DNA of 64,000 nt from Candidatus Magnetocorallium paracelense. GTDB lineage: Bacteria > Nitrospirota > Thermodesulfovibrionia > Thermodesulfovibrionales > Magnetobacteriaceae. This document shows positions 37,233 to 51,702 of this stretch, piece after piece. The stretch lies in the NCBI GenBank assembly GCA_029001845.1, contig JAREWP010000078.1:34305-98304 (forward strand). Direction: 5' to 3'. The notes beneath the pieces were generated by a model. It made no database searches. It worked only from the letters and a program-made list of their open reading frames with translations, and was not told where the DNA came from. A program made the position numbers and the translations under genes. Each line of letters opens with the position of its first letter. The stretch's first letter is position 1.

Positions 37233-38093
37233 ATGGAGATAGCCAATCCGATATACGATGGTGTGTTTAAGTATTTAATGGAAGATAATGAAATCGCTAA
37301 ACTGATAATATCCAACATTATAGAGCAGGAAATAATTGAATTGGACTTTTTGCCACAGGAGAGGAGTACAAAGATAGAACATAACCGGCGTTTTTTTACT
37401 GTTTTCAGAATGGATTTTTCTGCTACGATTAAAGTAAAAGATCAAAGCTATAGGAATATTATTATTGAGATACAGAAGGCCAAGCTTCCCACGGACATAA
37501 TGAGATTCAGGCGATATTTGGGAGACAGGTATAAAGATAAGGCAAATGTCTATACAATAAAAGATGATAAGGGGGAGGCCAGGAAAAAGGCAATCCCCAT
37601 ATTCAGCATTTATTTTCTTGGATATGAATTGGAGCGTATAAAGGATGATCCTGTGATAGATGTGCATAGAAGCTATTACAGCAGGAGATCGGGCAGGAAG
37701 ATAGAGGAGAGAGAAGATTTTATAGAGAGTTTAACCCATGATAGTGTAGTGATTCAGATACCATTTTTAAAGAAGAGATACGTAACGGAGCTGGAGAAAT
37801 TATTGAGCGTATTTGATCAAAGTTGTATAACATCGGATGAGCACATATTGAATATAAAGGAGGAGGAATATCCTGAGAAGTATGGGAGAGTAATCAGGAG
37901 ATTACAGAGGGCGATTTTAAGCAAGCAGATAAGGGATGATATGGATGCAGAGGATGATGTAATAGAAGAGTTAAAGGAGCTGGAAAGAGATGTAGCAAAA
38001 AAGGATAAAGCATTGGAGGAGAAGGATAAAGTAATAGAGGAAAAGGATAGAATAATAGAAGAATTAAAAAAAAGATTGAGTAAAGGAGAGTAA
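37233..38093 (+). CDS. Rpn-family PD-(D/E)XK nuclease / putative transposase
   Basis: 286 residues. The N-terminal PANPIYDGVFKYL-type motif (here IANPIYDGVFKYLMED) is typical of Rpn/PDDEXK_2 proteins. The nuclease core has Asp in FRMDFSATI (about 50) and E-x-Q in IIIEIQKAK. The C-terminus is a charged coiled coil with KDKxxEEKDK repeats. GGAGG sits just upstream of the ATG. Rpn proteins promote RecA-independent recombination and are scattered in repeat-rich genomes. Its presence may relate to the repeat density of this island rather than to peptide chemistry. Confidence 0.85.
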   Translation: MEIANPIYDGVFKYLMEDNEIAKLIISNIIEQEIIELDFLPQERSTKIEHNRRFFTVFRMDFSATIKVKDQSYRNIIIEIQKAKLPTDIMRFRRYLGDRYKDKANVYTIKDDKGEARKKAIPIFSIYFLGYELERIKDDPVIDVHRSYYSRRSGRKIEEREDFIESLTHDSVVIQIPFLKKRYVTELEKLLSVFDQSCITSDEHILNIKEEEYPEKYGRVIRRLQRAILSKQIRDDMDAEDDVIEELKELERDVAKKDKALEEKDKVIEEKDRIIEELKKRLSKGE

Positions 38094-38094
38094 A

Positions 38095-38181
38095 GCGAAG
38101 TTGATTTTCCGGATTTACAGGATTAACGGTATAAAAAAATAATCTGCGTAAATCCTGAAAATCTGAGTTATCTGCGTTCAA
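38095..38181. repeat. Island palindromic repeat 6
   Basis: GATTTTCCGGATTTACAGGA ... AATCTGCGTAAATCCTG ... TCTGCGTTCA, then a T-run and the ATG of the sulfotransferase gene with no Shine-Dalgarno. Confidence 0.75.
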
Positions 38182-38192
38182 ATTTTTTTACA

Positions 38193-39053
38193 ATGTCCAA
38201 AATAATCTGGTTGGCATCCTATCCCAAGTCCGGTAATACCTGGTTCAGGGTTTTTCTGACCAATTTACTTGGAAACAGGGACGAACCGGCTGATATTAAC
38301 AGATTGGGAGGAGGCCCTATAGCAAGTGCAAGGGAAATGTTTGAAGAAGCTACCGGCATTGAATCATCCTGTTTAACAATGGATGAGATAGAGAGGCTTA
38401 GACCTGCAGTATATGAATATCTGGTGGAAAAGGCGGAAGATACGATCTATATGAAAGTACACGATGCCTATACATTCACGAATCATTCCACACCGTTGAT
38501 TCCAACAAAAGCCACAAAGGGTGTGTTATATATCGTAAGAAATCCTTTGGATGTAGCCGTATCCCTGGCTCATCATGAGGCAACGGACATAGATAGTGCA
38601 ATAAAGGAGATGTGCGATGACAAGTATGCCTTTTGTATAGGTCCAAATATGCTCTTTGATCAATTGAGACAATGGCTTCTGACCTGGAGCGGACATGTGA
38701 TCAGTTGGGTGGACCAGGGGAATATTCCTGTTCATGTAATAAGATATGAGGACATGAAGCTGAATTCATTGGATACTTTTACAGGGGCTGTTAAGTTTGC
38801 CGGTATAGAGAGGAGTGAGGAAGAGATAGCAAAGGCTATAGAATTAAGCAGTTTTGAAACATTAAGGGGCCAAGAGAGGGAGAAAGGATTCAGGGAAAGA
38901 TCTCAAAAGTCAGAATCTTTTTTTAGAAAAGGCGAAACAGGGTCATGGAGAGAGGTATTGAGTGATCAGCAGGTGGAAATGATAGTTTCTCACCACAGGG
39001 AGGTAATGAGGAGGTTCGGTTATCTTGATGAGAACAATGAAATTGTTTTTTAA
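38193..39053 (+). CDS. PAPS-dependent sulfotransferase
   Basis: A 286-residue sulfotransferase-1-type enzyme transferring sulfate from PAPS to a hydroxyl or amine. The 5'-phosphosulfate loop SYPKSGNTW is at residues 9-17, the 3'-phosphate site is IVRNPLDVAVSLAHH, and the C-terminal RKGETGSWREVL matches the conserved GxxGxW loop. The N-terminus starts directly with the strand before the loop, so it is cytoplasmic and complete. In this island a tyrosine or other side chain of the peptide is a conceivable acceptor, but small-molecule acceptors cannot be excluded. Confidence 0.88.
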   Translation: MSKIIWLASYPKSGNTWFRVFLTNLLGNRDEPADINRLGGGPIASAREMFEEATGIESSCLTMDEIERLRPAVYEYLVEKAEDTIYMKVHDAYTFTNHSTPLIPTKATKGVLYIVRNPLDVAVSLAHHEATDIDSAIKEMCDDKYAFCIGPNMLFDQLRQWLLTWSGHVISWVDQGNIPVHVIRYEDMKLNSLDTFTGAVKFAGIERSEEEIAKAIELSSFETLRGQEREKGFRERSQKSESFFRKGETGSWREVLSDQQVEMIVSHHREVMRRFGYLDENNEIVF

Positions 39054-39054
39054 T

Positions 39055-39139
39055 GGGACGCAGATTTACTGGATTTGCGGGATTATCAGGATAAAATTAT
39101 CTGCCTATATCATGATAATCTGTGTCATCGGCGCTTATT
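39055..39139. repeat. Island palindromic repeat 7 (diverged)
   Basis: GGGACGCAGATTTACTGGAT ... TTATCTG...AATCTGTGTCATCGGCGC. It starts one base after the sulfotransferase stop. Confidence 0.6.
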
Positions 39140-39160
39140 ATGACCGTTTTATGTGGGTTT

Positions 39161-39236
39161 TAAACAATCGTTAATTTAGTAACTTTAGGATCATATACAA
39201 CTTCATCATGTTCAAAGTCCAGCTTCATACGCCATC
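39161..39236 (-). pseudogene. Remnant of the retropepsin-like fragment gene
   Basis: Minus-strand reading encodes RWRMKLDFEHDEV then VYDPKVTKL and a stop, nearly identical to the C-terminus of the gene at 36652-36852. The 5' part is gone, replaced by the start of the arginase-like gene. It indicates that a segment including this gene was duplicated and then truncated. Confidence 0.65.
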
Positions 39237-39249
39237 TATTTAATTTGTA

Positions 39250-40209
39250 ATGAAAACAACAACTCTTTTTATTATTGAAGAACATCACGAAGCTTTTTTT
39301 ATTTGGAATTATTGCGTTGGAACTGGAAAGATAAAACCATCATGTAATACACTATTGCATGTTGATTATCATTCCGATTTTGCGCTTCCCCTTTTACAAA
39401 CCTCTCTCTACTCTTTAAATGGAAACAACAAAGCAATCAAGGAGTTTACTTACCGGGAATTATCCATATCCAATTTTATTGCTCCTGCAATTTATCTGGG
39501 AATATTCAATGAAGTTTTCTGGATAGACCAAAAGAAAGAACGTAAAAAATCACTATCAACCGACAACATCGACTTTTTACCGGTAAATAACGAGAACAGA
39601 GTAATGAAGCAAAAAAGAGTTGAAGGCTTTCTGCAGTCAAAAAACAGAGACGGTAAAAACCTTTTAATTCAGGAGCTTGTACCGGCAATTAAGGCAATTC
39701 AATATCCATGGAGAAGGGAGTTCGTTTATTATTATACAAATGTTCCTTCTGCCATATTTCCTTCCGGCCCCATAGTATTGGATATTGATCTTGATTACTT
39801 CTCCTGTTGGACTGCTCCTAAGAGATCGATAGAACTTAAAGTTGAAGTTACTGAAGAAGCTTACAACCTACTACAAAACCCATACCATCCTGTGAATCTG
39901 CTTGAAAAAAGAGTAGTATTGGAAAAAAGCGGTAAGAGATTTTTTGTTCATTTCAACAGGGTCGATAAAAATTTCCATTCAAATGCAAAAGTAGATAGAG
40001 ATGAGATACTTGGCAGAATCGATCTCTTTATTTCCTTTCTTAAGGAAAACAATATTTATCCTCAAATAATCGATATTTGCAGATCGAGATATAGTGGTTT
40101 TACACCGCAGGATCAGTGGGAGTTTATTGAAAAGAGTTTAATCGAAGAGTTGAGTCAGCTCTACTCATTAGAGATTGTTTTACCTGATGATTTACAGGAT
40201 ATTTGTTGA
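39250..40209 (+). CDS. UPF0489 / peptide-arginase-like protein (OspR type)
   Basis: 319 residues. EEHHEAFFIWNY near the N-terminus and two metal-binding motifs typical of the arginase/deacetylase fold are present: DxHxD in LLHVDYHSDF (D39, H41, D43) and DxDxD in VLDIDLDYF (D178, D180, D182). UPF0489 proteins in RiPP clusters include OspR-type peptide arginases, which turn Arg residues of a precursor into ornithine. That role is inferred here from motifs and from the surrounding peptide-modifying genes; the Cys-rich candidate precursor carries five Arg after its leader. No Shine-Dalgarno precedes the ATG. Confidence 0.7.
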   Translation: MKTTTLFIIEEHHEAFFIWNYCVGTGKIKPSCNTLLHVDYHSDFALPLLQTSLYSLNGNNKAIKEFTYRELSISNFIAPAIYLGIFNEVFWIDQKKERKKSLSTDNIDFLPVNNENRVMKQKRVEGFLQSKNRDGKNLLIQELVPAIKAIQYPWRREFVYYYTNVPSAIFPSGPIVLDIDLDYFSCWTAPKRSIELKVEVTEEAYNLLQNPYHPVNLLEKRVVLEKSGKRFFVHFNRVDKNFHSNAKVDRDEILGRIDLFISFLKENNIYPQIIDICRSRYSGFTPQDQWEFIEKSLIEELSQLYSLEIVLPDDLQDIC

Positions 40210-40242
40210 TTACATGTGTTGGTTCATATGGTAGGAATGTTT

Positions 40243-40857
40243 TTAGGAAAACTCCAGAATCGCCATCATATATTCAGGCCTGTCCGGATCTACTGATCCC
40301 TCAATCAGTTGAACGCCACAAGGGGATATATCTTTTTGTAACTGGTCTATATTCTCAAAATACAACTGGTTTTGATTCTTTTTACGATGAAATGATGTCA
40401 CAGCTCCCAGAAGTATAAGCCCTCCTGGCATTAAAGTGTGGCGCAAGCCCTTGAGAATATCTAACCTTCGCTCTGCTGCAAATGAATAGCATGAAAAAAA
40501 AATAAAATCAAAAACTTCTTTTTTAAGTGGAAGATGTTCCATATCAGCCTGCACAAAATGTACATTTCCTATATTTTTCTCGGCAACCAATTTATTTCCG
40601 CTCTGGAGGTAGAGAAAACCGATGTCAATGCATATGATATTACATTGATGATGGTGGATCGGGTATGCTTCACGTCCGTTTCCTGAACCTAGTATTAAAA
40701 CATTATTCGGAGATTTCAGATATTTTTCAACAAGATATCTTTCTGTGGTAAGATAGCCCCACTCAAAATTTTTTCGCTTGCCAAACATAGCCCCCCATGG
40801 GGCATGTTTTTGATATATGCTCGCTAAGTGAGTTGTGAGATCAAATGAATTTTTCAT
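40243..40857 (-). CDS. Class I SAM-dependent methyltransferase
   Basis: 204 residues with a Rossmann methyltransferase core: motif I VLILGSGNGRE (about 53-63), acidic end of strand 2 in CIDIG, FVQADMEHLPL (motif II-like) and MPGGLILLGAV (motif III). It belongs to the broad Methyltransf_11/25 group. It lies 60 bases downstream of the S26 peptidase gene on the same strand and likely shares its transcript. Substrate unknown; in this setting a peptide or a sugar is possible. Confidence 0.8.
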   Translation of the reverse strand: MKNSFDLTTHLASIYQKHAPWGAMFGKRKNFEWGYLTTERYLVEKYLKSPNNVLILGSGNGREAYPIHHHQCNIICIDIGFLYLQSGNKLVAEKNIGNVHFVQADMEHLPLKKEVFDFIFFSCYSFAAERRLDILKGLRHTLMPGGLILLGAVTSFHRKKNQNQLYFENIDQLQKDISPCGVQLIEGSVDPDRPEYMMAILEFS

Positions 40858-40917
40858 TTAGATTATATGGAACCTATTATCGATTGTTTAGAGAAGCGTG
40901 AAATCAATTTCTTATAA

Positions 40918-41544
40918 TCAGGTTATTTCTCTTTTTGTATTCAATTCAATTTCTTTTAGATATCTATCATTAAAGATAAGCCTGAACGGCTTTTTGATGA
41001 GCCACTCATTACTGTCAGCCAGTCGTCTGCCTATTATGTAATTACGGGCCATTATTTGAATTTCTACGCCTTTTTCACTCCTGAAGGTCAGAATACGTGG
41101 ATTGAACCACTTTAGAAATATTGTAAATATACCGCTATTGGAGAGGTACATGTAAGGGTTATGCAGCAACTCATTCAGGAAGATTTTATACTTATTTACA
41201 CTCCGGCGCCAAAGTCCTGTCAATCGGCCATAATAACCGCCGTAAATTTTAAATCTCCTTTTTCCTCTTTTGACGAAAACTACACGTCCCTGTACATCTT
41301 GCGGTTTTACAATCCAACTGTCTGCATCTCTTCTGTTATCGCCTTTGGTCCTAATCGTACCGGAATCGATATTGATGATTCGATGAACAACACTTACTCC
41401 CATATCAGGCGTTTGAAAAACAATAACATCACCCTCCAGAATCTTTCTATTATCATAGGAAATGATCTCCATGGCGTCGCCGTTCTTAAGAGTAGGGTAC
41501 ATGCTTGACCCTTTGTAATGGATCGGATCCGGGTAATTGCTCAT
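40918..41544 (-). CDS. S24/S26 family peptidase, Sec11-like
   Basis: 208 residues. The signal-peptidase Ser box is KGSSMYPTL (Ser14 before Met). Next comes GDVIVF, and at the place of the bacterial catalytic Lys there is His in VVHRII (His54), as in the ER/archaeal Sec11 class. The TKGDNRRDAD loop follows. No N-terminal membrane helix is present; a hydrophobic patch occurs late (IFTIFLKWF). Soluble S26 proteins of this kind are frequent beside PqqD/HprK-like genes. A role in cutting the leader of the island's peptide product is an inference. Confidence 0.75.
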   Translation of the reverse strand: MSNYPDPIHYKGSSMYPTLKNGDAMEIISYDNRKILEGDVIVFQTPDMGVSVVHRIINIDSGTIRTKGDNRRDADSWIVKPQDVQGRVVFVKRGKRRFKIYGGYYGRLTGLWRRSVNKYKIFLNELLHNPYMYLSNSGIFTIFLKWFNPRILTFRSEKGVEIQIMARNYIIGRRLADSNEWLIKKPFRLIFNDRYLKEIELNTKREIT

Positions 41545-41557
41545 AATGCTTGAAGGA

Positions 41558-41632
41558 TCTACGCAGATTTTACAAAATCAACATATATATGCTTAAATAT
41601 CCGGCAAATTCAGCGAACCACGCCATCTACGT
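41558..41632. repeat. Island palindromic repeat 8 (degenerate)
   Basis: CTACGCAGATTTTACAAAAT ... CCGGCAAATTCAG ... CATCTACGT; recognisable only by comparison with the other copies. Lies in the divergent promoter region between the S26 peptidase and the B12-type radical SAM gene. Confidence 0.4.
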
Positions 41633-41673
41633 ACAAGCAAAACTGTTATAACTCTTAAGATTTAGATAGATTA

Positions 41674-42987
41674 ATGCAAATTACATTAATAATACCTTCC
41701 AAAAAAGAGACTATTCCACTTGCCCCGTTGTATCTATGCTCCAATCTCGAAAAAAACGGTCATGAGGTTGATTTAAGATTAATAGATACAGATACGATTA
41801 AGTGTTGCAAGTTCAAACCAGCCAACATAAACCTATTCCTTGATTTATTGATCAACTCACATCGTATCGTTGCAATAGGATGCATGAATAATCTTCTCCC
41901 CTATATTTTATTTGCAATTAAAAGATTTAAGCAACAATATAATAAAACCATTATATTGGGAGGCCCGGGCCCCTCTGAATTCGCTTTGGAAATAATGAAA
42001 AAGTTCAGCGAAGTAGATTTTATTATCAAAGACAGAGATCCTGGCATTTTAGCAGAACTCATTAGTTATTTTGAGACAGGAAAAGAAAATGAGATTAACA
42101 TTAATGGCCTTGTATACAAACAAGGAAGCAGGATTGTATATAATCCTTCTGATGATGACTACTTTGACAGATTAAAATTCCCTGAGAATATGGAACCGAA
42201 CTTTGAGGAGATAAACGAATTTCATCTGCTCACCGTAGAGGGATGTCCCTATAGATGTACTTTTTGCAATGTAAGGCCTTTTATTTCAAGGAGCCTTAGG
42301 CGCCGGAATTTACAACAAGTTCTCGATGAGATCAAATGGACCCTAGAAAGGATTGTGAGACCAATTGTATTTATCATAGTAGACGAGGCATTTTTAGTGA
42401 ACAGGAAGAGAGTATTGGATTTTTGTTCGATGCTGAAACAGAATAACATGAAGATCAGATGGAAGTGTTACGGGAGAATAAATCATACAGACAACGAGCT
42501 TATGGCCATTATGAAAGACGCCGGTTGTGTAGGTATTTTTTTTGGTATAGAATCAGGCTCTAACTCTGTACTGCAGAAGATAAAAAAGGAGTTTACCATA
42601 GAGATTGCAATCAAAGTTTTAATTGAAGCAAAAAAATATTTTGAAGATACTGTGGCCAGCTTCATATGGGGGTATCCCTTTGAAAGCCTTGATGACTTAG
42701 TAAAAACAGTGATGACAAAAGCATTTCTGGACAATAAATCCATCAAGACACAACTAAAATTTCTTACCCCTGTAAGAGATTCAGAAATCATATCCGAATA
42801 TGGAGAACAACTCACCTTTAATGAAGAGATTCCCTTTCTGGCCGAGACTTACAATCTGATGCCTGAGAGTGCTGAATTTAAGATGTTTGTAGGGGAAAAT
42901 AAGGATATTTTCCTGGGTTATAACACTTATGTAAGTCCAGATCTGAATAAAAAAATAGAGCTGTTAAAAAAATCGGGGTTCATTTGA
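41674..42987 (+). CDS. B12-binding-domain radical SAM protein
   Basis: 437 residues. The N-terminal cobalamin-binding-like Rossmann domain (about 1-140, with IILGGPGPSEF) is followed by a radical SAM core with CxxxCxxC in EGCPYRCTFCN (Cys191, 195, 198) and GIESGS later in the barrel. The usual DxHxxG cobalamin-ligand motif is not evident, so cobalamin may bind base-off or not at all. Enzymes of this class perform C-methylation, epimerisation-like or ring-forming chemistry. Position in the island suggests a peptide substrate, but lipid or cofactor substrates are possible. No Shine-Dalgarno is visible upstream. Confidence 0.8.
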   Translation: MQITLIIPSKKETIPLAPLYLCSNLEKNGHEVDLRLIDTDTIKCCKFKPANINLFLDLLINSHRIVAIGCMNNLLPYILFAIKRFKQQYNKTIILGGPGPSEFALEIMKKFSEVDFIIKDRDPGILAELISYFETGKENEININGLVYKQGSRIVYNPSDDDYFDRLKFPENMEPNFEEINEFHLLTVEGCPYRCTFCNVRPFISRSLRRRNLQQVLDEIKWTLERIVRPIVFIIVDEAFLVNRKRVLDFCSMLKQNNMKIRWKCYGRINHTDNELMAIMKDAGCVGIFFGIESGSNSVLQKIKKEFTIEIAIKVLIEAKKYFEDTVASFIWGYPFESLDDLVKTVMTKAFLDNKSIKTQLKFLTPVRDSEIISEYGEQLTFNEEIPFLAETYNLMPESAEFKMFVGENKDIFLGYNTYVSPDLNKKIELLKKSGFI

Positions 42988-42995
42988 CTTGAGAT

Positions 42996-43084
42996 ATAGA
43001 ACGTAGGTATAGCAGTTTTAGAGGATTCAAGCCGATTAAAGAATCCTGCAAATCAGGAGAATCCAGGCCATTTGCATTCTGTTG
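42996..43084. repeat. Island palindromic repeat 9 (diverged)
   Basis: TAGAACGTAGGTATAGCAG ... AATCCTGCAAATCAGGAGAA ... TTTGCATTCTG; sits between the convergent stops of the radical SAM gene and ScmC. Confidence 0.5.
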
Positions 43085-43089
43085 CCTTA

Positions 43090-44031
43090 TCACAGCTCAC
43101 ATAATACCTCATCAACTTGTTCATGGAATCCTCCATTAAGAGAGAACTTAAGTTTATAAACAGGTACTGTTTTTCCTATTCTAACGGCATTTTCATACAT
43201 CTTTTCAAAAATTACATGAAATGGCAGCATGTTTTTATCTTTTTTCTCATATCTTTTATAGATTTGTAAAGCCGCCGCATATACATGTAAGGTACGCTCC
43301 ATAGGATTTAAGGTGCATATTTCATTCTTTAAAGATTTTTCCAAAATAAAGACTCCCGACAGTTGATGAGCTTTACGTAAATTGTATGATGGTGTTTTTT
43401 GCTCTCTGGCGCTGGTTATTGTGGGAAAGGCATGGACTTTATAGTTGGAGCTTGAGGTGGGGAGTACAACGACCTCGTCATCGCAGTGCACCATACCTTT
43501 AGAGGAAAACATTCTGCAGCAGGTACTCTTACCGCCATCAGCCTCTCCCGCCAAGAGGATAAAACGGTTGTTGTACATGACACAACCGGCATGGAGAGGT
43601 AATCCGTCGCTTTGAATACAATAATAATGAATGATTTCCAGTATGTGGTAGACAACTGTGAAGAAACAGATAACAGGATCAAGGGTGATGTTTACAGGAA
43701 TAATTATATTTGTATCATGGATTGAAGAGGTAGTGTTTTCGCAACTGTATACACTTTTCTCCCACTCATCTTTTGTAGAGCACCTTTGCAGACTATATGT
43801 AAGCCCCTCCAGGCAATCGGAGCATGATAAGTATATTCGCAGGCATTCAGAATCATTATCCGGCTTATGTGCGCCTTTAAAATATAAATTGTACATGAGA
43901 AGGTAATCATGCAACTTCGATGCGCTGTGTTCACATACCCCCAAGGCTGTTGTACAATGTAAATTTGAGGGAAGGTTGTCTCTCGCTCTGACCGGAATAT
44001 CGGGAATATAATGATAGAAGTGATAAAGCAT
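43090..44031 (-). CDS. scmC: SynChlorMet cassette protein ScmC-like, HprK-type P-loop protein
   Basis: 313 residues. The C-terminal HprK-like domain has LPLHAGCVMYNN, Walker A GEADGGKST (162-170), a CC pair after it, and VHCDDEVVVLP (DDE at 184-186). The N-terminal half carries many Cys (about ten in the first 140 residues). From memory, ScmC is the conserved non-radical-SAM member of the SynChlorMet peptide-modification cassette. Here it is the last gene of the minus-strand run, 140 bases after the Cys-rich candidate precursor. Its biochemical role is unknown; nucleotide binding and possibly phosphorylation are inferred. Confidence 0.75.
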   Translation of the reverse strand: MLYHFYHYIPDIPVRARDNLPSNLHCTTALGVCEHSASKLHDYLLMYNLYFKGAHKPDNDSECLRIYLSCSDCLEGLTYSLQRCSTKDEWEKSVYSCENTTSSIHDTNIIIPVNITLDPVICFFTVVYHILEIIHYYCIQSDGLPLHAGCVMYNNRFILLAGEADGGKSTCCRMFSSKGMVHCDDEVVVLPTSSSNYKVHAFPTITSAREQKTPSYNLRKAHQLSGVFILEKSLKNEICTLNPMERTLHVYAAALQIYKRYEKKDKNMLPFHVIFEKMYENAVRIGKTVPVYKLKFSLNGGFHEQVDEVLCEL

Positions 44032-44171
44032 TAGATAAAGAATTTAAAAACTTAAAAACACTACAATTCTATAGATATAGTAACGTATATTTCATTATCC
44101 AAACATAAAGCGTATTGAAACATCTAAGTCGGAAGCATGTAATAATGACTTTACAGGGCAAAATTTGGTTG

Positions 44172-44402
44172 TTAGCTACAAGTTCTATAACCTGCTCCAC
44201 CGGGGCAAGAGTTCCTGTTAGCAGTCCCTCCGCGACAGAGAGTAGCCGCAGCAGCACCTCCTGCGCTGCAAATATTTGCGCGACTGCCTACTATGCAGGT
44301 ACCGTCAGTAGCACCATAGCCAAATCTGCATGATCCGGCGCAAGCAGCACCGGCCGCCCCACTTCCGAATTTTACCAGTCTTGGCGCTTTCCATTTTCCC
44401 AT
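44172..44402 (-). CDS. Candidate RiPP precursor, Gly/Ala/Cys-rich (76 aa)
   Basis: 76 codons starting ATG 44402 behind a near-perfect AGGAGGT (44407-44413). The leader-like N-terminus MGKWKAPRLVKFG fits WxxPxLxxxG, close to the YxxPxLxxxG motif by which PqqD-type recognition elements bind lasso-peptide leaders. The rest is Gly/Ala/Ser-rich with seven Cys at 21, 25, 36, 45, 56, 66 and 75, spaced 8-10 residues apart after the first pair, plus five Arg, one Asp and three Asn. No signal peptide. It lies 69 bases after scmF and 140 before scmC on the same strand. I do not recognise a named family; the precursor of this cassette had not been identified to my knowledge. Confidence 0.8.
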   Translation of the reverse strand: MGKWKAPRLVKFGSGAAGAACAGSCRFGYGATDGTCIVGSRANICSAGGAAAATLCRGGTANRNSCPGGAGYRTCS

Positions 44403-44471
44403 TATGACCTCCTGATTATGACATTAAAAGGGCATACCTTTGCATTGAGCAAAGGATTATCTTTTATATTA

Positions 44472-45551
44472 TCAGTTTTTAATTATCTTCTGACGGCTTA
44501 CAGGAAACAATCCGGCCTTTTCAGCATCTTCACAGAACCAAAAGGGAGCCCATACATTTTTGTGTCTATAATAGTTCTGTGCAATACAACTGCCGCTGCA
44601 TATCACCTTCATTACACAGGTTCTGCAAACGCCTTCAAGTCGATGGGGTAAGCCTTCCCTTAGTCTATTCAACAGATCCGTATGATTCCATACATCTGCT
44701 AATAAATCATTTCGAGCATAACCGATTTTTAGTTCCGGCACACTCTCTCCAATACCGCATAATGCATATGAGCCATCGGACAATACACCCAATATGTTTA
44801 AAATACTGCACCTGCCTCTGTTGTTTCCATTTCCATAGATATGGCTCAAGGGAGCGAAAGCATCAGGGTAAGAGTAGTATAAATCGATTTTTACTTTTTT
44901 TGACAGTTCCGTATCCACCCACCTTCCCAGAGCAATCAACCGATCTATCCCTACAGTCTCTCCCGCCTTATGCATCTTGTCTCCTCTGGCTACAGGCATT
45001 ACGATGTTAAACTTTACTGAGCCCGCTCCCGAAGCTTCCGCAATTGTTACGACTTCTTCTATCTGGTTCTTATTGTCGTTCATAACAGACATAATCACCT
45101 GAGGTCTGTAACCGGCATTTACCAGATTCTTTATCCCTTTCATTGCAAGATCGAAACTTCCCTCTACACCCCTTATCCTGTCATGGGTTACTGCATTGGA
45201 GCCGTCAATACTCACTGACACATTTTGAGTCCTGCACTTTGTAATTTCTCTTGCCATGGCCGGAGTGCAATATGTACCATTTGTTTCTATTGCCACCGTA
45301 ATATCGTTCTTACGGATAAATTGAAGTATTTCAAAGATATGGGGATGCATAAGGGGCTCGCCTCCCGTCAACTTAACACCTTTTAGTCCTAAAGGGATCG
45401 CCTCTTTGATAATATGGCGGAACAGGTCAAAATCAAAAACTCTGTATTTCTTATCCGCTGTTTCAAACTTTGGGTTGATCCAGCAGTGGCGGCAACGGAG
45501 GTTACATCCTTCGGTCAGATAGAAATATAGGCGCTTTAAGGGGTATTTCAT
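44472..45551 (-). CDS. scmF: Radical SAM/SPASM protein, ScmF-like
   Basis: 359 residues. Radical SAM core with CxxxCxxC in EGCNLRCRHCW (Cys16, 20, 23), GGEP motif in KLTGGEPLMHP and VSIDGSNAVTHDRIRG. The C-terminal SPASM domain has a complete seven-Cys pattern, including GVCRTCVMKVICSGSC (CX2CX5CX3C) and the final Cys in APFWFCEDAEKAG. Auxiliary FeS clusters of SPASM enzymes support thioether or C-C/C-O bond formation in peptides. The text matches my recollection of ScmF. It precedes the candidate precursor directly. The start codon follows a T-run and an inverted-repeat arm, with no Shine-Dalgarno. Confidence 0.88.
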   Translation of the reverse strand: MKYPLKRLYFYLTEGCNLRCRHCWINPKFETADKKYRVFDFDLFRHIIKEAIPLGLKGVKLTGGEPLMHPHIFEILQFIRKNDITVAIETNGTYCTPAMAREITKCRTQNVSVSIDGSNAVTHDRIRGVEGSFDLAMKGIKNLVNAGYRPQVIMSVMNDNKNQIEEVVTIAEASGAGSVKFNIVMPVARGDKMHKAGETVGIDRLIALGRWVDTELSKKVKIDLYYSYPDAFAPLSHIYGNGNNRGRCSILNILGVLSDGSYALCGIGESVPELKIGYARNDLLADVWNHTDLLNRLREGLPHRLEGVCRTCVMKVICSGSCIAQNYYRHKNVWAPFWFCEDAEKAGLFPVSRQKIIKN

Positions 45552-45558
45552 AAAAAAA

Positions 45559-45643
45559 TTGAACTCAGAATGACAGGATGTGCAGGAACATCAGGATTTC
45601 AGATCTGCGTAAATCCAGTAAATCCTGAGAATCTGCGTTCTAT
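45559..45643. repeat. Island palindromic repeat 10
   Basis: TTGAACTCAGAATGACAGGA ... GATCTGCGTAAATCC...AATCCTGAGAATCTGCG; between the two ScmF-like genes. Confidence 0.7.
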
Positions 45644-45677
45644 TCTCCTTTCGATAATTTAAATTTGCATTAACTGT

Positions 45678-46748
45678 TTATAGTCTCCTCTGACGGCTTA
45701 CAGGAAACAATCCCAGCCTTTCAGCATCTTCACAGAACCAAAAAGGCGCCCACAGATTTTTGTGCCTGTAGTAGTTCAGGGCAATACAACTTCCATTACA
45801 TATCCGCTTCATTACACAGGTACTGCAAACGCCTTCAAGTTTATAAGGAAATTCCTGCCTAAGCCTGTTCAACAGTTCCGTATTGCACCATACATCCTCT
45901 AATTGATCCTTGCCGGCATGTCCGAATATCAGTTCAGGGAAACTCTCTCCTGTTCCGCATAATGTGTATGAGCCGTCGGACAGTACTCCCAATATTCCTA
46001 ACAGGCCGCATCTCTTTTTATTGACATTCTCTCCATACATACGGCTGAAAGGTAAAAAGGCGTAAGGATAAGTGTAGTGTAACCTTATCTTTACCTTTCC
46101 TGACAGCTCAGTATTCACCCACCTTCCGATAGTAATTAACTGATCCACTCCTATACTCTCATCCTCCCCGGCAACTCGATCTCCCCCGGAAGCAGGCATT
46201 ACCATCTTAAACTGAACTAAACTGGCGCCCAATAACTCCGACATATTTACTACATCCTCTATCTGGTCTTTATTACGGTTCATAACAGGCATCATCATAT
46301 GGGGTGTGCAACCGGCATTTACCAGGTTCTTTATCCCTTTTATTGCGGAATCAAAACTTCCCTCAACACCTCTTATCCGGTCATGAGTCTCTGCATCAGC
46401 ACCGTAAATATTCACAGACACATTTTTAGGGCTGCTCTTTCTGATTTCCCTTGCAAGAGTCGGAGTGCAACATGTTCCGTCTGTTTCTATTATAAACCAT
46501 ATCTCCTCTTTACGAATAAACTCCAGGATTTTGCTGATATCAGGATGCATGAGTGGCTCTCCCCCTGTCAGCTTAACGCCTCTCAGTCCTAAGGGCTTCG
46601 CTTCTTTAATGATATGGCGGAAAAGTTCAAAATCAAGAATCACGTAATCTTTATCCGTTGCCTGATATTGAGGCTCTGTACAGTGACAGCAGTTATGGGT
46701 GCAGCCTTCGTTGAGATTGAAGTATATGCGGTTTAAGGAGTAGTTCAT
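45678..46748 (-). CDS. Second ScmF-like radical SAM/SPASM protein
   Basis: 356 residues, a close paralogue of the neighbouring ScmF-like enzyme over its full length. Radical SAM motif EGCTHNCCHC (Cys16, 20, 23, with an extra Cys21), KLTGGEPLMHP, and SPASM motif GVCSTCVMKRICNGSC with closing Cys in APFWFCEDAERLG. Differences concentrate around the SAM cluster loop (TEPQYQATDK instead of INPKFETADK) and residues 100-130, where a second active-site wall would be. A tandem duplication with divergence is likely, giving the cassette three radical SAM enzymes instead of two. Start codon after a T-run from the repeat arm. Confidence 0.87.
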   Translation of the reverse strand: MNYSLNRIYFNLNEGCTHNCCHCTEPQYQATDKDYVILDFELFRHIIKEAKPLGLRGVKLTGGEPLMHPDISKILEFIRKEEIWFIIETDGTCCTPTLAREIRKSSPKNVSVNIYGADAETHDRIRGVEGSFDSAIKGIKNLVNAGCTPHMMMPVMNRNKDQIEDVVNMSELLGASLVQFKMVMPASGGDRVAGEDESIGVDQLITIGRWVNTELSGKVKIRLHYTYPYAFLPFSRMYGENVNKKRCGLLGILGVLSDGSYTLCGTGESFPELIFGHAGKDQLEDVWCNTELLNRLRQEFPYKLEGVCSTCVMKRICNGSCIALNYYRHKNLWAPFWFCEDAERLGLFPVSRQRRL

Positions 46749-46754
46749 AAAAAA

Positions 46755-46909
46755 TTGAACGCAGATTAACAGGACTTACGGGATTCACGCAGATATGAAA
46801 AAATTTTTTGTGAATAGACTAAAAGTTTTCATTTTCATGTTTTGAGGTGATCTATAAGGACATGAACGATTATCCAGAAAATCCTGCAAATCCCGTCAAT
46901 CTGCGTTAA
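46755..46909. repeat. Island palindromic repeat 11
   Basis: TTGAACGCAGATTAACAGGA ... AATCCTGCAAATCCCGTCAA + TCTGCGTTAA, arms separated by about 85 bases. Its left end with the T-run leads into the second ScmF-like gene. Confidence 0.72.
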
Positions 46910-47299
46910 TTATTCCTTTCTTATGTTTAAAGCTTTACGCCTTATCTCCGGTTTAGGTCCAAAATTGAGCAGCAATCCAACTTCAATCTTTGTTGCCTTT
47001 AGATAATTCAATAATTGTGCTGCCTGACCTTCGGTCAGACTCTTTGCGGCCTTTAATTCCACAATCACTCTGTTATCAACCAAAATATCGGCAAAGTACT
47101 CACCAACAACTTCATTCTTGTAATATACCTTTAAAGGGAACTGAGAAATTGCGGAGAGATTCTCATTCCTAAATTCAATCATCATGGCATTTTCATACAC
47201 CTTTTCAAGAAAACCGTATCCAAAATAATTATAGACCCTGTAAAAGATATTGATAATCTTTTCAGTTAAATCATTATGTTTAAAGTCATCATGTAGCAT
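46910..47299 (-). CDS. GxxExxY-family PD-(D/E)XK protein
   Basis: 129 residues from ATG 47299 (MLHDDFKHNDLTEKII). The family motif GYGFLEKVYENAM and the nuclease-like D...ExK core (FADILVDNRVIVELKAAKSL) are intact, with Q in EGQAAQLLNYLK. Members are common in repeat-rich genomes and their function is unknown. A longer frame to 47392 would translate the inverted repeat upstream and is rejected. It interrupts the radical SAM genes and has its own repeat on each side, so it may be a passenger. Confidence 0.8.
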   Translation of the reverse strand: MLHDDFKHNDLTEKIINIFYRVYNYFGYGFLEKVYENAMMIEFRNENLSAISQFPLKVYYKNEVVGEYFADILVDNRVIVELKAAKSLTEGQAAQLLNYLKATKIEVGLLLNFGPKPEIRRKALNIRKE

Positions 47300-47304
47300 A
47301 AAAA

Positions 47305-47392
47305 TTGAACGCAGATTTGCAGGATTTTCGGGATTTACAGGATTTTCTTCAGATCTGCGTAAATCCTGCAAATCCGGAAAATCTGCGTTCAA
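47305..47392. repeat. Island palindromic repeat 12
   Basis: TTGAACGCAGATTTGCAGGA ... GATCTGCGTAAATCCTGC...AAATCTGCGTTCAA. Its right end contains the TGA stop of scmE (47389-47391); its left end and T-run lead into the GxxExxY start. Confidence 0.78.
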
Positions 47393-48480
47393 ATCAATCT
47401 CCCTCCATTATCGAGAAATGCTCTCAAACAAGCTCCCGGATCAGGATTATTCTCTTTATTGGTCAAAGCATATGCACCGGCCGGGCAGTTGCCGGTACAG
47501 TAAGGTATGTACTCGCAGCCTTTGCAAAATTCAAATTCACCTAATGGTATGGCTCCCCGCTCTCTCAATCGTTTTAACTCACCATGTTCCAGCCAAACCT
47601 CTTTTAAAACGTCTCTGTTTATCCGACCCAGCTCTATATGAGGTATCTGGGTGCAGGGCACCATCACACCGTCAGCCCTTATGCCTATCTTATTATGAAA
47701 CCCTCCGCATCCCCTCAGGTACCCCCTTCCAGGCATTGCTTCCCTCTTCTCCTGTCTCGCCTGCTCCATATCCTTCCAAGTTATGGCCTCTGCCAACGGA
47801 CCGGCCATTGCACGTATTCTGTTATTATACTTTCTGTTTAGCCTTAACAGTGTTTCCATCGCAAGCTCTCTCTCTCTGATGGACAGGAGAATGTTATCTT
47901 TGTTTTTACTGCACAGCCCAAAGGGAGAGACTGAATTTGTAGAGAATGATTTTAAGCCCAACTCTTCCAGCAACAACCTTGCTATTTCCTCTAGATCCCT
48001 TACATTATGCTTATGTATGGTGACTCTCACAGCTAGGGGAACGTTGTGTTTTTTAAGCCTATTTATACCCTCCATGGCCTTATAAAATGATCCGTCTCCT
48101 CTGCAGGAATCATGAGTTTCAGGTCCTGATCCGTCAATAGAGATTTGAACAGTGCTGCAGCGCTTTGTAGAGATCAGGTAAGAGGCCATTTCATCTGTTA
48201 TGAGTGCGCCGTTACTCAAAATTGAAAACCTCATACGATTTTTTACGATACCGTCTATTATTTCCTTAATATCTTTTCTGAGAAAGGGTTCTCCGCCGGC
48301 TATATCTATATTCAAAACCGCACATCTGTTGAGCTCCTCAAAAAAGGTAAGCCACTCATGAGCCGGCAGATCCTGATCGACATCGCCTGCGCTCTCAAAG
48401 TGATAGCAATAACTGCACCTGAGATTGCACCTGTTAGTAATATCTATGGATACGGATTTCGGAGTTTTTAGTAAATTCAT
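47389..48480 (-). CDS. scmE: Radical SAM/SPASM protein, ScmE-like
   Basis: 363 residues. Radical SAM motif NRCNLRCSYCYHF (Cys18, 22, 25) and AGGEPFLRKD. The SPASM domain begins at GCGGFHNKIGIRADGVMVPC and continues EFCKGCEYIPYCTGNC (CX2CX5CX3C), with the last Cys in DPGACLRAF. The opening KTPKSVSIDITNRCNLRC and the ELNRCAVLNIDIAGGEPF segment agree with my recollection of ScmE. It is distinct from the ScmF pair. Its stop is provided by the repeat downstream, and its ATG follows a T-rich run without Shine-Dalgarno. Confidence 0.88.
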   Translation of the reverse strand: MNLLKTPKSVSIDITNRCNLRCSYCYHFESAGDVDQDLPAHEWLTFFEELNRCAVLNIDIAGGEPFLRKDIKEIIDGIVKNRMRFSILSNGALITDEMASYLISTKRCSTVQISIDGSGPETHDSCRGDGSFYKAMEGINRLKKHNVPLAVRVTIHKHNVRDLEEIARLLLEELGLKSFSTNSVSPFGLCSKNKDNILLSIRERELAMETLLRLNRKYNNRIRAMAGPLAEAITWKDMEQARQEKREAMPGRGYLRGCGGFHNKIGIRADGVMVPCTQIPHIELGRINRDVLKEVWLEHGELKRLRERGAIPLGEFEFCKGCEYIPYCTGNCPAGAYALTNKENNPDPGACLRAFLDNGGRLI

Positions 48481-48499
48481 AAAAAATAAAAAGATTTAA

Positions 48500-48584
48500 T
48501 AGAACGCAGATTAACAGGATTTGCAGGATTGTCAGGATATAAAAAATCCTGTTAATCCCGTAAATCCAGCCAATCTGCGTTCTA
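48500..48584. repeat. Island palindromic repeat 13
   Basis: TAGAACGCAGATTAACAGGA / AATCCTG...AATCCCGTAAATCCAGCCAA + TCTGCGTTCTA, a near-perfect long hairpin between scmE and the coiled-coil gene. Confidence 0.8.
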
Positions 48585-48588
48585 TTTT

Positions 48589-49251
48589 TTAAATCAGACC
48601 AACACTCTTTAAAGCCTTTGCCACATCCGGGTTTTGCGTTGCCATCTCTTTTAAAGCCCTTTCTATCCTATTCTCCTTCTCCTCAAGCCTGTCATCTCTC
48701 TCTTCCAACTCCTTGTGTTTCCTGATAATAGGATTTAATGTCGTACGTCTGTCCCATAATACAAAGCTTATTAATATAAAAATTCCGCTTATAACTACAT
48801 AAACAAGATCGCGTAATGCTTTTATCTCTCCACGTATTGCCTGGTTTTCCGCCTTTGAGTAGTCACGTTGTGCAGCTATCTCTTCTCGTAATGCCTGAAT
48901 CTCTATTTTGAAAGAATCGCGCATTGCCTGCATCTCAGCTTTAAAAGAGTCTCGTAATGTCTGATTATCAGCTTTAAAAGAGTCTCGTAACGTCTGATTA
49001 TCTGTATTAAAAGAGTCTCGTAATGTCTGATTATCAGCTTTAAAATCACTCCTTAACTCATCGATTCGAAGATTAACATCACTAATACGTACATTTGTAG
49101 CCTTAAGGCCTTCATCAATCTTAGCTACATTAATCTCAAGTTCTCTAAGCCTTTGTCTGTCCTCTTGTGTAAAACCGCCTTCTTCTGACAACGCAGGAGA
49201 GGCGAGTAATAAAAATAATAAGATAGTAAGTATAGAAACACTTCGATGCAT
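48589..49251 (-). CDS. Exported membrane coiled-coil protein
   Basis: About 220 residues from ATG 49251. Signal peptide (MHRSVSILTILLFLLLASPALS), coiled coil with four to five 10-residue units of the type DNQTLRDSFK, membrane helix (LVYVVISGIFILISFVLW) and a charged C-terminal coiled coil (ELEERDDRLEEKENRIER). A TTG start ten codons upstream is possible. Similar in design to the proteins at 35924 and 49885 but not closely related in sequence. Function unknown; it separates scmD from scmE. Confidence 0.7.
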   Translation of the reverse strand: MHRSVSILTILLFLLLASPALSEEGGFTQEDRQRLRELEINVAKIDEGLKATNVRISDVNLRIDELRSDFKADNQTLRDSFNTDNQTLRDSFKADNQTLRDSFKAEMQAMRDSFKIEIQALREEIAAQRDYSKAENQAIRGEIKALRDLVYVVISGIFILISFVLWDRRTTLNPIIRKHKELEERDDRLEEKENRIERALKEMATQNPDVAKALKSVGLI

Positions 49252-49333
49252 AATGTTATATTTCCTCTTATTCTTACTCAATTATAACATATCATTAACT
49301 CTTCTTTGTTTCTTTGGAAAAGTGAATAAATGG

Positions 49334-49410
49334 TACGCATATTTACGGGAATTTAATGAAATGAAAAAAATCCTGTAAATCCCGTAAATCCCGCTAATCT
49401 GCGTTCTATT
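49334..49410. repeat. Island palindromic repeat 14 (right arm kept)
   Basis: AAATCCTGTAAATCCCGTAA + ATCCCGCTAATCTGCGTTCTA; the left arm is reduced to TACGCATATTTACGGGAAT. Ends two bases before the scmD stop. Confidence 0.6.
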
Positions 49411-49412
49411 AT

Positions 49413-49694
49413 CTATACCTCAAATCCCACAAGCCCATTATCTACCAACTCATCGACAAACTCTTTTACCTCAACCATTCCGCTTTCCGGCATATCTTCG
49501 TACTCTTTTTTCAGATCAGCCGTAATATCCTCTAACGTGCTCTTACCGTTAAGCCTTTTCCATATATCTATACCTACAGGATCAATACCAAATGCCTCGC
49601 CCGTATCCGGATCAAAGAGCACCCCCCAATCATCGAACTCTTCTCTTAATACGACTACCTGGTTTACAATTGGTTTACTGTTAGATTGTTCCAT
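49413..49694 (-). CDS. scmD: PqqD-like recognition protein, ScmD-like
   Basis: 93 residues. VVLREEFDDWGVLFDPDTGE followed by AFGIDPVGIDIWKRL is the segment I associate with ScmD. The C-terminal helix VKEFVDELVDNGLVGFEV completes the winged-helix PqqD fold, which binds precursor leaders and presents them to radical SAM enzymes. It is upstream of scmE and the ScmF genes on the same strand. It is the expected partner of the WxxPxLxxxG leader in the candidate precursor (inference). Confidence 0.85.
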   Translation of the reverse strand: MEQSNSKPIVNQVVVLREEFDDWGVLFDPDTGEAFGIDPVGIDIWKRLNGKSTLEDITADLKKEYEDMPESGMVEVKEFVDELVDNGLVGFEV

Positions 49695-49884
49695 GACTAC
49701 TCCTTATTCGTTTTTTAGTGAATATTATTATATCATGAAAAAGTACTATCTGTAAATCATTAGAAATGCTAACTTTTGAAGGGTAGAGACCTTACCGGGT
49801 AAATTGAATAGCAAGATTCCATTGGTTTTGCTTTTAAAAGAAAGAGTTTCAAATTACTTACCGCCGGGAGCAGGATTTCTGAGC

Positions 49885-50355
49885 TTAGGACGCGGTTTGT
49901 TGTTGAGGGATCAGTTTTTCAATAAGAGTTTTCAGGAATGCTATATCTTCCTTTTGCGTCGCTAAAGATGACTCTATCTCAACCTGTTTACTCTGCATCT
50001 TCCATTGAAGCCTTAATACAAAACCCAGGATCACCAGAGCCAATGTTATAAAAATCCCAAGCATCCATTGCATCACACTAAATCGACTTATCATTTCCAA
50101 TCGTAAATCGTCTATCCGCCTGTTCGTGTCATCTATTCGCTTATTCAAATTGGCCATGCCTTCCTCTAAGCGTTTATTCATAGCAGCCTGGCCATCGTCT
50201 AAACGCTTATTCAGAGCAGCCTGGCCTTCTTTTAATGATATGAGTGATTCAATGATTTCCCTGTCCGTTATTCTCTCCGCCTTTTCAACGGCGCCGGTAT
50301 ATCCGGGTAAAAAAAACAGGCAGAAAAATATTAATATATTTATAATGTTTTTCAT
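49885..50355 (-). CDS. Membrane coiled-coil protein, copy 2
   Basis: 156 residues, paralogue of 35924-36430 with the same order: signal-like N-terminus, EKAERITDREIIESLISLKE, QAALNKRLDDGQAAMNKRLE units, membrane helix MLGIFITLALVILGFVLRL and tail ending LIPQQQTAS. The other copy has a longer repeat region and five extra C-terminal residues, because a stop replaces a Lys codon here. The two copies lie on both arms of the island, suggesting segmental duplication. Function unknown. Confidence 0.7.
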   Translation of the reverse strand: MKNIINILIFFCLFFLPGYTGAVEKAERITDREIIESLISLKEGQAALNKRLDDGQAAMNKRLEEGMANLNKRIDDTNRRIDDLRLEMISRFSVMQWMLGIFITLALVILGFVLRLQWKMQSKQVEIESSLATQKEDIAFLKTLIEKLIPQQQTAS

Positions 50356-50422
50356 GAGCTTATTTTAACAAATTAAAAATCTCAAGTCAAATTATCCGAG
50401 CTCTTTCCGGATAGTGAAAATA

Positions 50423-50513
50423 TAGAACGCAGATATTATGGATTTACAGGATTGTCACAGATATTTTTTAAAAATCCTGTCAATCCCGAAAATCGCGTCA
50501 ATCTGCGTCCCAT
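50423..50513. repeat. Island palindromic repeat 15
   Basis: TAGAACGCAGATATTATGGA + TTTACAGGATTG ... AATCCTGTCAATCCCGAAAA ... AATCTGCGTCC; between coiled-coil copy 2 and the tail-collar gene. Confidence 0.72.
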
Positions 50514-50525
50514 TAATAAAAATAT

Positions 50526-51143
50526 CTAATTTCTCGGAGGAAAGATTCCCGTAAGTGCAATGATATAGTATAACCCAAGAAAGGGCGGCATGGTAAAGAA
50601 AGACTCACCGCCTCCGGTTGCCTGAATAGCATTCGGACTCATGTTCGTATCAGGGACTGAGCGTGAATATGCATTTGGAGCAGGTACTGAAACCTCGGCA
50701 TCGCCTGTTGTTTGGCCTGTATACTTATCCCTTCCAGCTGTAACCTCTACCGGAATACCTGAAGGTACCACTCCCACACTCGCTGCCGCCTCCCCCCACA
50801 CAGCACCACTGGGATCTGAAGTATCCCCGCTTCTCGCTGCTACTGCCTGATGGGTATGGGAAGGCATATGAGCTATATCCAGAGTTACCGATACATCCCC
50901 GCCACTTTGTCCCCATTTGAAAGTGGGTAAACCTGGTCCCGTTCCTTGTCCCACCGGAACACGGCTCCGCAAATCGGGCAAAGCAAAGTCCGTTCTTCCA
51001 TTACCGCCAAAAGCAGTTCCAAGCAGCGCAAAGAGGGCTGAATGATCTGAAATGGACAGATGCTCACCAATACACAATGCATATCCTCTCGGGGCATAAC
51101 TAAATCCCACTAACTTGATTTCTCCTATATAAGGTTCGCTCAT
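50526..51143 (-). CDS. Phage tail-collar domain protein (microcystin-dependent-protein-like)
   Basis: 205 residues. The collar fold begins YIGEIKLVGFSYAPRGYALC, then SALFALLGTAFGGNGRTDFA, LPDLRSRVPVGQG, and after a variable Gly/Thr/Ser-rich stretch ends QATGGGESFFTMPPFLGLYY. This matches the MdpB-type tail-collar family, which occurs outside prophages together with GNAT and DUF6916 genes, as here. No other phage gene is present, so it is unlikely to be a prophage tail. Location of the product (surface or cytoplasm) is unclear; no signal peptide. Confidence 0.85.
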   Translation of the reverse strand: MSEPYIGEIKLVGFSYAPRGYALCIGEHLSISDHSALFALLGTAFGGNGRTDFALPDLRSRVPVGQGTGPGLPTFKWGQSGGDVSVTLDIAHMPSHTHQAVAARSGDTSDPSGAVWGEAAASVGVVPSGIPVEVTAGRDKYTGQTTGDAEVSVPAPNAYSRSVPDTNMSPNAIQATGGGESFFTMPPFLGLYYIIALTGIFPPRN

Positions 51144-51210
51144 AACTCAATCTCCTTTAATATTATTGTCAATAGAGGGTTAATAAAAAAGTTCAACACA
51201 ATGAAGTTCT

Positions 51211-51702
51211 CTAGTCACCTCCTTTCTCTTTAGGAAACCACTCAATAAAGTAATAGAGTCCCCTAAGTTCAATTATTTTAAAGCCCAGGCGATTGTAAAA
51301 ATTTATTGCACGGTTATAGTATTCTATATGACCGGTTACCCGCTTCCCTGTTTCGCCTGCATCCTTCATGATTCGTTGAAGCAACTGTTCGCCAATTCCC
51401 CTGTTCCTATGTTCAGGAAGAAGTGCAATGTCAATAATCCTGATCTCCTTGTCCCATCTGCCCAGGTAAAGACGCCCTATGGGAGTCTTGTGAATAAGAA
51501 TAATGAGAAACTCCGAGTTTTTCTTCAAATTCTCCATATAATATGTGTGCTGGGCATGGTGCTGCATGGCCAGAAAATCCTCTTTTTCCCTGTCACTGAA
51601 GTTTGTAAGAGAAAGCTCCTCAGTGCGTGTGGAAGCAAATACCTTATAAAGAAATCCCTGATCCTTGTCTGTTATGGGACGAAAGGTTATTCCTGTGTGC
51701 AT
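51211..51702 (-). CDS. GNAT-family N-acetyltransferase
   Basis: 163 residues with the acetyl-CoA motif IALLPEHRNRGIGEQLLQRI (Q/RxxGxG/A) and the following AINFYNRLGF segment typical of GNAT enzymes. GGGAGAT precedes the ATG. It lies between the tail-collar and DUF6916 genes, a trio that recurs in many genomes. Substrate unknown; acetylation of the collar protein or of a small peptide is conceivable but unsupported. Confidence 0.88.
   Translation of the reverse strand: MHTGITFRPITDKDQGFLYKVFASTRTEELSLTNFSDREKEDFLAMQHHAQHTYYMENLKKNSEFLIILIHKTPIGRLYLGRWDKEIRIIDIALLPEHRNRGIGEQLLQRIMKDAGETGKRVTGHIEYYNRAINFYNRLGFKIIELRGLYYFIEWFPKEKGGD

Follow-up and report, generated by a model that had tools for sequence, protein, structure and literature searches.

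The window analysed here, a stretch of 64,000 nucleotides from the genome of Candidatus Magnetocorallium paracelense, carries a SynChlorMet (SCM) cassette whose genes lie on the minus strand in the order scmD-scmE-scmF2-scmF1-[ORF]-scmC. The scmD gene (49413–49694, minus strand) encodes a PqqD-type RiPP recognition element (RRE) and matched TIGR04248 with 105.6 bits (cut-off 100), and scmE (47389–48480, minus) encodes a radical SAM/SPASM protein that matched TIGR04250 with 580.2 bits (cut-off 400). The other radical SAM/SPASM gene is present in two copies, scmF1 (44472–45551, minus) and its tandem duplicate scmF2 (45678–46748, minus), which scored 526.1 and 457 bits, respectively, against TIGR04251 (cut-off 400); the two proteins are 64% identical, and their DNA is 76–79% identical in aligned stretches. 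The CxxxCxxC motif and the complete set of SPASM cysteines are kept in ScmE and both ScmF copies. At the other end, scmC (43090–44031, minus) encodes an HPr-kinase-like protein that scored 114.5 bits (E = 5.6e-33, residues 121–310 aligned) with TIGR04249, its best match, 10.5 bits short of the cut-off of 125; its place, HprK/P fold, and catalytic residues (H147, G162, G167-K168-S169, and D184-D185) agree with an identity as ScmC.

The scmD-scmE-scmF order is broken up by a gene for a GxxExxY protein (46910–47392, TIGR04256) and by a coiled-coil-like ORF with 33-nt internal repeats (48589–49281). Two near-duplicate coiled-coil-like ORFs (35924–36430 and 49885–50355, 87–89% DNA identity in blocks) lie one on each side of the cassette. 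A dispersed repeat of ~43 nt (AAATnGAACGCAGATTT..GGATT..CAGGATT) has 14 listed copies, two of them overlapping, between many of the cassette genes from 35755 to 51774, and a second repeat with nine copies in the same interval looks like its inverted partner. Elsewhere in the window, an ORF at 3066–3833 contains a long tandem GKIESEAARLE repeat.

Between scmF1 and scmC lies a minus-strand ORF of 76 codons (44172–44402) with an ATG start, 69 nt from the scmF1 stop codon and 140 nt from the scmC start codon, and an AGGAGGT Shine-Dalgarno sequence (44407–44413, minus) is located four bases upstream of the ATG. A preliminary description of the window had proposed a gene of this length with this ribosome-binding site, placed between an ScmF-like gene and scmC; the gene and its site were found as described, and the TIGR04251 score of 526.1 bits and the sub-cut-off TIGR04249 score agree with the neighbours named there. 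The encoded protein is MGKWKAPRLVKFGSGAAGAACAGSCRFGYGATDGTCIVGSRANICSAGGAAAATLCRGGTANRNSCPGGAGYRTCS (monoisotopic mass 7304.41 Da if unmodified), and no NCBIfam or Pfam family matched it. Residues 1–20 (44343–44402, minus), taken as the leader from the family consensus with a putative boundary at the first Cys, contain W4-x-x-P7-x-L9-x-x-F12-G13. Residues 21–76 (44175–44342, minus) form the core, which has five C-x-x-G units (C25-RF-G, C36-IV-G, C45-SA-G, C56-RG-G, and C66-PG-G) at a spacing of 9–11 residues, together with C21 and C75. The Cys positions given earlier (21, 25, 36, 45, 56, 66, and 75) are exact. Their description as seven regularly spaced residues holds for the five in the repeats, and not for C21 and C75, which stand outside the regular element.

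As a single query against a protein database (5.8 billion proteins, 24 candidates scored), the window peptide matched only itself, and the profile of the peptide family described below retrieved just four proteins there at E ≤ 0.001. Since small genes are often missed in gene calling, the DNA around scmE and scmF was read directly. The sample comprised 80 loci encoding ScmF relatives together with loci taken from genomes related to that of the window (numbered with the prefix L), and the small-ORF survey covered the 67 loci that have scmE as well as scmF, or 64 distinct loci, the window included, once three repeats were removed. Simple filters brought out a small ORF whose product has Cys-x-x-Gly repeats behind an aromatic-x-x-Pro leader; often it lies right after scmF or ahead of scmD. 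Rules for the leader and for Cys-x-x-[GA], with at least three Cys for most candidates, yielded 56 candidates in 45 of the 67 loci. Ten were removed by eye as chance frames (L006 5669, L009, two opposite-strand frames of L023, L029 3541, L037, L039, L043 15210, L065 3916, and window 50725). Four copies from loci that were repeats of others (L028, L084 with two, and L088) and a second L006 frame (8878) were also set aside. After the addition of L004, in which scmE is cut off, 42 peptides were aligned, several of them with a later start codon that has a better ribosome-binding site. Some finds made by the profile only (L012 6427, L017, the L045 and L052 arrays, and L065) stayed outside the 42. 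The nearest relatives that have the cassette share their precursor peptides with loci from records titled Nitrospirae in three cases: L003, from the family of the window genome, with L028; L088, from its order, with L031; and L084, from its class, with L007.

A profile of these peptides was cross-validated six-fold, such that the model never contained peptides of the held-out loci. At E ≤ 1e-3 it retrieved 51 of 8201 ORFs in 41 of the 64 distinct loci, or 40 of 63 without the window, an outcome in favour of the preliminary description, under which similar small genes should occur at other scm loci. All but two of the 51 ORFs are on the scm strand; 46 lie within 1.5 kb of scmD, scmE, or scmF, and the other five within 4 kb. 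As a control, the same loci were reversed and searched with the model of all 42 peptides, and none of 8006 ORFs was retrieved (best E = 0.052). The window ORF was recovered in its held-out fold with an E-value of 1.7e-5, and a model built from the 41 peptides of other loci scored it at 27.1 bits (E = 1.3e-7), with 6.9 bits for the runner-up among 657 window ORFs. None of 5000 whole-peptide shuffles reached the real score, and neither did any of 2000 shuffles in which residues 1–16 were fixed and the rest mixed (best 24.4 bits). The one genome whose scm-free DNA was scanned with the family profile was the window's own, and in its 6.0 Mb this place alone was found at E ≤ 1 (18 candidates scored; the window ORF was included in the profile).

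No profile hit at E ≤ 1e-3 was found in 23 of the 64 loci. In 18 of these 23, the contig or excerpt extends less than 1.5 kb beyond the scm genes on one side; the other five (L005, L009, L051, L059, and L068) have more than 1.5 kb of DNA on both sides. L058 fell just short (E = 0.0044). When the other 22 hitless loci and L017 were searched for the leader motif followed by any core, no convincing alternative emerged, with the possible exception of L034, where a small ORF behind scmF on the opposite, minus strand (2712–2873) has two Cys-x-x-Gly units and may be another kind of precursor. In the Bacteroidetes SCM loci L045 (8305–9505) and L052 (2343–3117), several short ScmA-like genes stand in an array, and each of them has two Cys-x-x-Gly units.

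The 42 peptides share a leader and a repeated core. With the aromatic residue as anchor, the leader consensus is K-[Y/W/F]-E-K-P-x-L-V-x-L, with Tyr in 31 peptides, Trp in ten including that of the window, and Phe in one; Leu, Ile, Val, or Met stands at +5 from the aromatic residue in 36 of 42, and Leu, Phe, Met, or Ile at +8 in 41 of 42. The leader Pro is found in 42 of 42 peptides, and Gly stands at +3 from 204 of 243 core Cys (84%), figures that are inflated because rules on the leader and on Cys-x-x-[GA] had partly guided the choice of peptides. When the cores were shuffled 1000 times, Cys-x-x-Gly occurred 45.9 times on average and at most 67 times, compared with the 204 observed, and a further 20 of the 243 core Cys have Gly at +4 only. 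The peptides have 3 to 14 Cys each, mostly as a repeating array (at least three being a selection rule for most), and the Cys-to-Cys spacing peaks at 10 residues; those of L023 and L027 are examples with many repeats.

The common leader motif of lasso peptides is YxxPxL according to the available text of one study (PMC10368454), and the family consensus includes it. The window peptide carries it as W4-x-x-P7-x-L9, with Trp replacing Tyr. The WxxPxLxxxG N-terminus pointed out earlier, likened there to leaders recognised by PqqD-type proteins, is present as W4-x-x-P7-x-L9-x-x-x-G13, and the comparison supports a lasso/PqqD-type leader.

NCBIfam already holds a model for an SCM precursor, TIGR04252 (SCM_precur_ScmA, cut-off 35), so the claim that no precursor had been identified for SynChlorMet does not stand. 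The model matched the NaphS2 peptide (L020) with 69.1 bits; this peptide is a member of the family of 42 and shares the leader and the Cys-x-x-Gly repeats. The window ORF differs in that TIGR04252 did not match it, or anything else in the window's genome, at E ≤ 1. Among all 42 peptides, ten matched at E ≤ 1 and only that of L020 exceeded the cut-off, and weak matches, none above the cut-off, were found somewhere in five of seven SCM genomes and also in seven of 14 control genomes. Because the precursor model exists yet gives no match to the window ORF, we read its sequence as that of a divergent ScmA-like peptide missed by TIGR04252, and not of the first candidate ever. SCM precursors as such had already been postulated. 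What is new, as far as our searches show, is the divergent window peptide, the general leader and repeat rule, and the proposal for the chemistry of the repeats. Among CC-licensed papers in PMC, we found none on SynChlorMet, nothing related to an ScmF/ScmE/radical SAM/PqqD cassette, none linking CxxG to a sactipeptide, and, for TIGR04249–TIGR04252 or ScmA, only other meanings of ScmA among the matches listed.

ScmF1 as modelled with AlphaFold (mean pLDDT 78.6) had SkfB, SuiB, and anSME as its best solved matches, of which SkfB and SuiB are RiPP maturases. Outside the Scm families, the best models for ScmE and ScmF were WgkB (150.2 bits) and AhbD (139.8 bits), and StsB, the streptosactin-family maturase model (94.7 bits for ScmE and 94.8 bits for ScmF1), was no closer than several others. 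ScmD showed a weak match to the lasso RRE TbiB1 (5v1u, E = 0.00097), second behind a designed protein. For the ScmC model (mean pLDDT 71.4), Foldseek placed HprK/P (1kkl) first with an E-value of 4.5e-5 and modest TM-scores. An alignment of 21 ScmC sequences showed glycine-rich loops and invariant His147, Gly167-Lys168, and Asp184-Asp185; an impression gained with a strict Walker-A pattern, that many ScmC proteins lack a P-loop, was dropped on this basis.

Three further genes of the window recur at other SCM loci, as judged by tblastn at E ≤ 1e-5 against 63 loci, many of them short. They encode an S26-type signal peptidase that is a candidate leader peptidase (40918–41544, minus; relatives in 33 of 63), an ABC exporter (32416–34224, plus; 30 of 63), and an NTP_transf_5 nucleotidyltransferase (53739–54938, plus; PF14907, 149.5 bits; 25 of 63). 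A second HPr-kinase-like gene (34852–35760, 38.7 bits to HprK_rel_A) adjoins the exporter gene. Lasso clusters with a peptide kinase and a nucleotidyltransferase are known, as for paeninodin. The bsf cluster, as far as the available text of its report goes (PMC10368454), likewise combines a YxxPxL leader, a PqqD-type RRE, an HPr-like kinase motif, a nucleotidyltransferase, and an ABC exporter. The conserved lasso kinase motif given there includes residues that are aligned in ScmC, and the window ScmC keeps most of this motif, with one Gly replaced by Asp165 and a Lys-Asp distance one residue shorter than in BsfK; at the position of Asp165, the majority consensus of ScmC is another small residue or Gly. 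The SCM cassette differs from the lasso clusters in having radical SAM enzymes where these have a cyclase. A lasso peptide was rejected as the product: the window's genome has no match to the lasso B2 protease family PF13471 at E ≤ 0.001, and none of its eight matches to the Asn-synthetase-like family PF00733 is on the window's contig. In its make-up, the cassette resembles the accessory genes of lasso clusters that include a kinase, the cyclase being replaced by radical SAM enzymes.

Taken together, the place in the cassette, the family at other scm loci, and the leader with its Cys-repeat core support the candidate precursor put forward earlier, and the gene at 44172–44402 very likely encodes the ribosomal, ScmA-like precursor peptide of the surrounding SynChlorMet cassette. 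We put the probability of the following explanation as a whole at roughly 0.7. We predict, by analogy with lasso YxxPxL recognition, that the PqqD-like ScmD holds and presents the W-x-x-P-x-L leader, while ScmE and ScmF would link every repeat Cys to the alpha-carbon of the Gly three residues further on. The product would then carry sactionine rings of four residues, in tandem and unnested; the window peptide could have up to five, each with a mass change of −2.016 Da. ScmC may phosphorylate the peptide, the S26 peptidase may remove the leader, and the ABC transporter may export the product.

The pairing typical of sactipeptide loci, a SPASM radical SAM enzyme adjoining a Cys-bearing precursor, is present here, and streptosactin is the best-fitting precedent because its bonds share the i to i+3 spacing. 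Streptosactin (GggA/GggB) has Cys-x-x-Gly/Ser four-residue units in which a SPASM radical SAM maturase makes two unnested alpha-thioethers, Cys31-Gly34 and Cys25-Ser28 (PMC8172795, where in the available text Cys25 is once printed as Cys15). It differs, on the same text, in having two rings in a 14-mer made by one maturase, whereas the SCM peptides have 3 to 14 Cys each, their bonds are only predicted, and they combine a lasso-type leader with a PqqD protein and maturases of two kinds. Cys is likely the modified residue. Its assignment to an alpha-thioether with Gly(i+3), which rests on this analogy, is tentative, with somewhat less than an even chance, and the Gly at +3 may be there just to allow a beta-turn.

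Ranthipeptides also pair a Cys-bearing core with a SPASM enzyme. The window peptide could be a precursor that receives non-alpha thioethers of this type, for example from Cys to Ser/Thr at +4 or to Ala at +6, which we consider unlikely. Ser/Thr make up 44% of the residues at +4 and Ala 38% at +6, and ScmE scored higher with the ranthipeptide maturase model PapB (108.1 bits) than with StsB; however, both positions are far less constant than the Gly at +3. The PapB-type acidic acceptor is likewise missing: around the 243 Cys of the 42 peptides, Asp/Glu do not exceed 8% at any position from +1 to +8 (one of 243 at +3) or 16% from −1 to −8 (16% at −1 and 11% at −8), and the window peptide has a single acidic residue past the leader Pro. 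A PapB-type Cys-Asp pattern was rejected on these counts, and the SCM peptides differ from ranthipeptides such as SCIFF and freyrasin/PapB in that no acidic residue follows Cys at a constant distance. Thermocellin and freyrasin are the ranthipeptides named in the available text of PMC8172795.

It is also improbable, to a similar degree, that the precursor undergoes a ringless change of Cys or its neighbours, such as epimerisation, C-C bond formation, or breakdown to a small redox cofactor like PQQ or mycofactocin. SPASM enzymes are diverse in their chemistry; ScmD, ScmE, and ScmF scored well against PqqD, PqqE, and mycofactocin maturase models, and PqqE was among the solved matches. Cofactor precursors, however, are short and have one conserved reactive pair, unlike the Cys arrays of the 42 peptides, and epimerisation would find no chirality to invert in Gly. 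That the ORF is instead a decayed or chance Gly/Ala/Cys-rich frame, with the true substrate elsewhere in the genome, is very improbable. The lack of a database homologue among the 24 candidates scored and the failure with TIGR04252 speak for such a frame, whereas the leave-one-out profile, the shuffle tests, the cassette position with its Shine-Dalgarno sequence, and the lack of a second match in the genome at E ≤ 1 speak against it. Precursor status with proposed Cys-to-Gly(i+3) rings remains our preferred reading.

Besides its scmF duplication, the window locus is peculiar in having four candidate tailoring genes between the exporter gene and scmC. They encode a sulfotransferase (38193–39053, plus; PF00685, 88.1 bits), a peptide arginase-like protein (39250–40209, plus), a class I methyltransferase (40243–40857, minus), and a B12-binding radical SAM protein (41674–42987, plus; B12-binding match under the Pfam cut-off). 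The sulfotransferase, arginase, and methyltransferase had no tblastn match at E ≤ 1e-5 among the other 63 loci, many of which are short, and the B12-binding protein had weak relatives in two of these loci. On the other side of the cassette, an ORF at 52352–53152 showed a weak match (26.8 bits, cut-off 300) to the putative nonproteinogenic amino acid hydroxylase family TIGR04531, and no relative of it was found in the 63 loci.

The arginase may turn Arg into Orn, which would be specific to the window locus and is the weakest step of the scheme. Compared with the peptide arginases OspR, FlmR, and OhkR, it aligned to OspR (8brp, E = 5.3e-62) in two stretches (residues 6–101 and 174–315 of 319), with the HVDxHSD and DIDxDYFSC stretches aligned, and scored 299.7 bits with NF052474, under the cut-off of 350. 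Six other SCM genomes yielded no arginase at E ≤ 1e-10. The window core contains five Arg (26, 41, 57, 63, and 73) and ranks second of the 42 by Arg fraction; Arg richness as proof of arginase action is weakened by L019, which has the highest fraction and no arginase in its available DNA. Arginases occur with SCIFF and 'SCCRRSCN' precursors, and SCM is not among the types named in the available text of PMC12703449. Action of the arginase on the window peptide is plausible, at close to even odds.

ScmF-like proteins are common, with 3703 at E ≤ 1e-60 among 7998 candidates scored, and ScmE was found in two of 60 genomes of near relatives and six of 395 of the phylum, the window's own genome being counted in both. 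According to record titles, ScmA-like hits span Nitrospirae, Deltaproteobacteria, Chlorobiaceae, Bacteroidetes, Acidobacteria, Omnitrophota, and methanogenic archaea. SynChlorMet might represent a new kind of sactipeptide, defined by a lasso-type leader with an RRE and a peptide kinase, two radical SAM enzymes, and tandem Cys-x-x-Gly rings about every ten residues, with ornithines made by the arginase in the window version, but at present we regard this as doubtful. For the presumed substrate of ScmF, the existing database model passes its cut-off in just one of 42 peptides, and the leader and repeat rule lets others seek the substrate beside scm enzymes in many bacteria and some archaea. Once the substrate is located, the product would become testable by co-expression and mass spectrometry.
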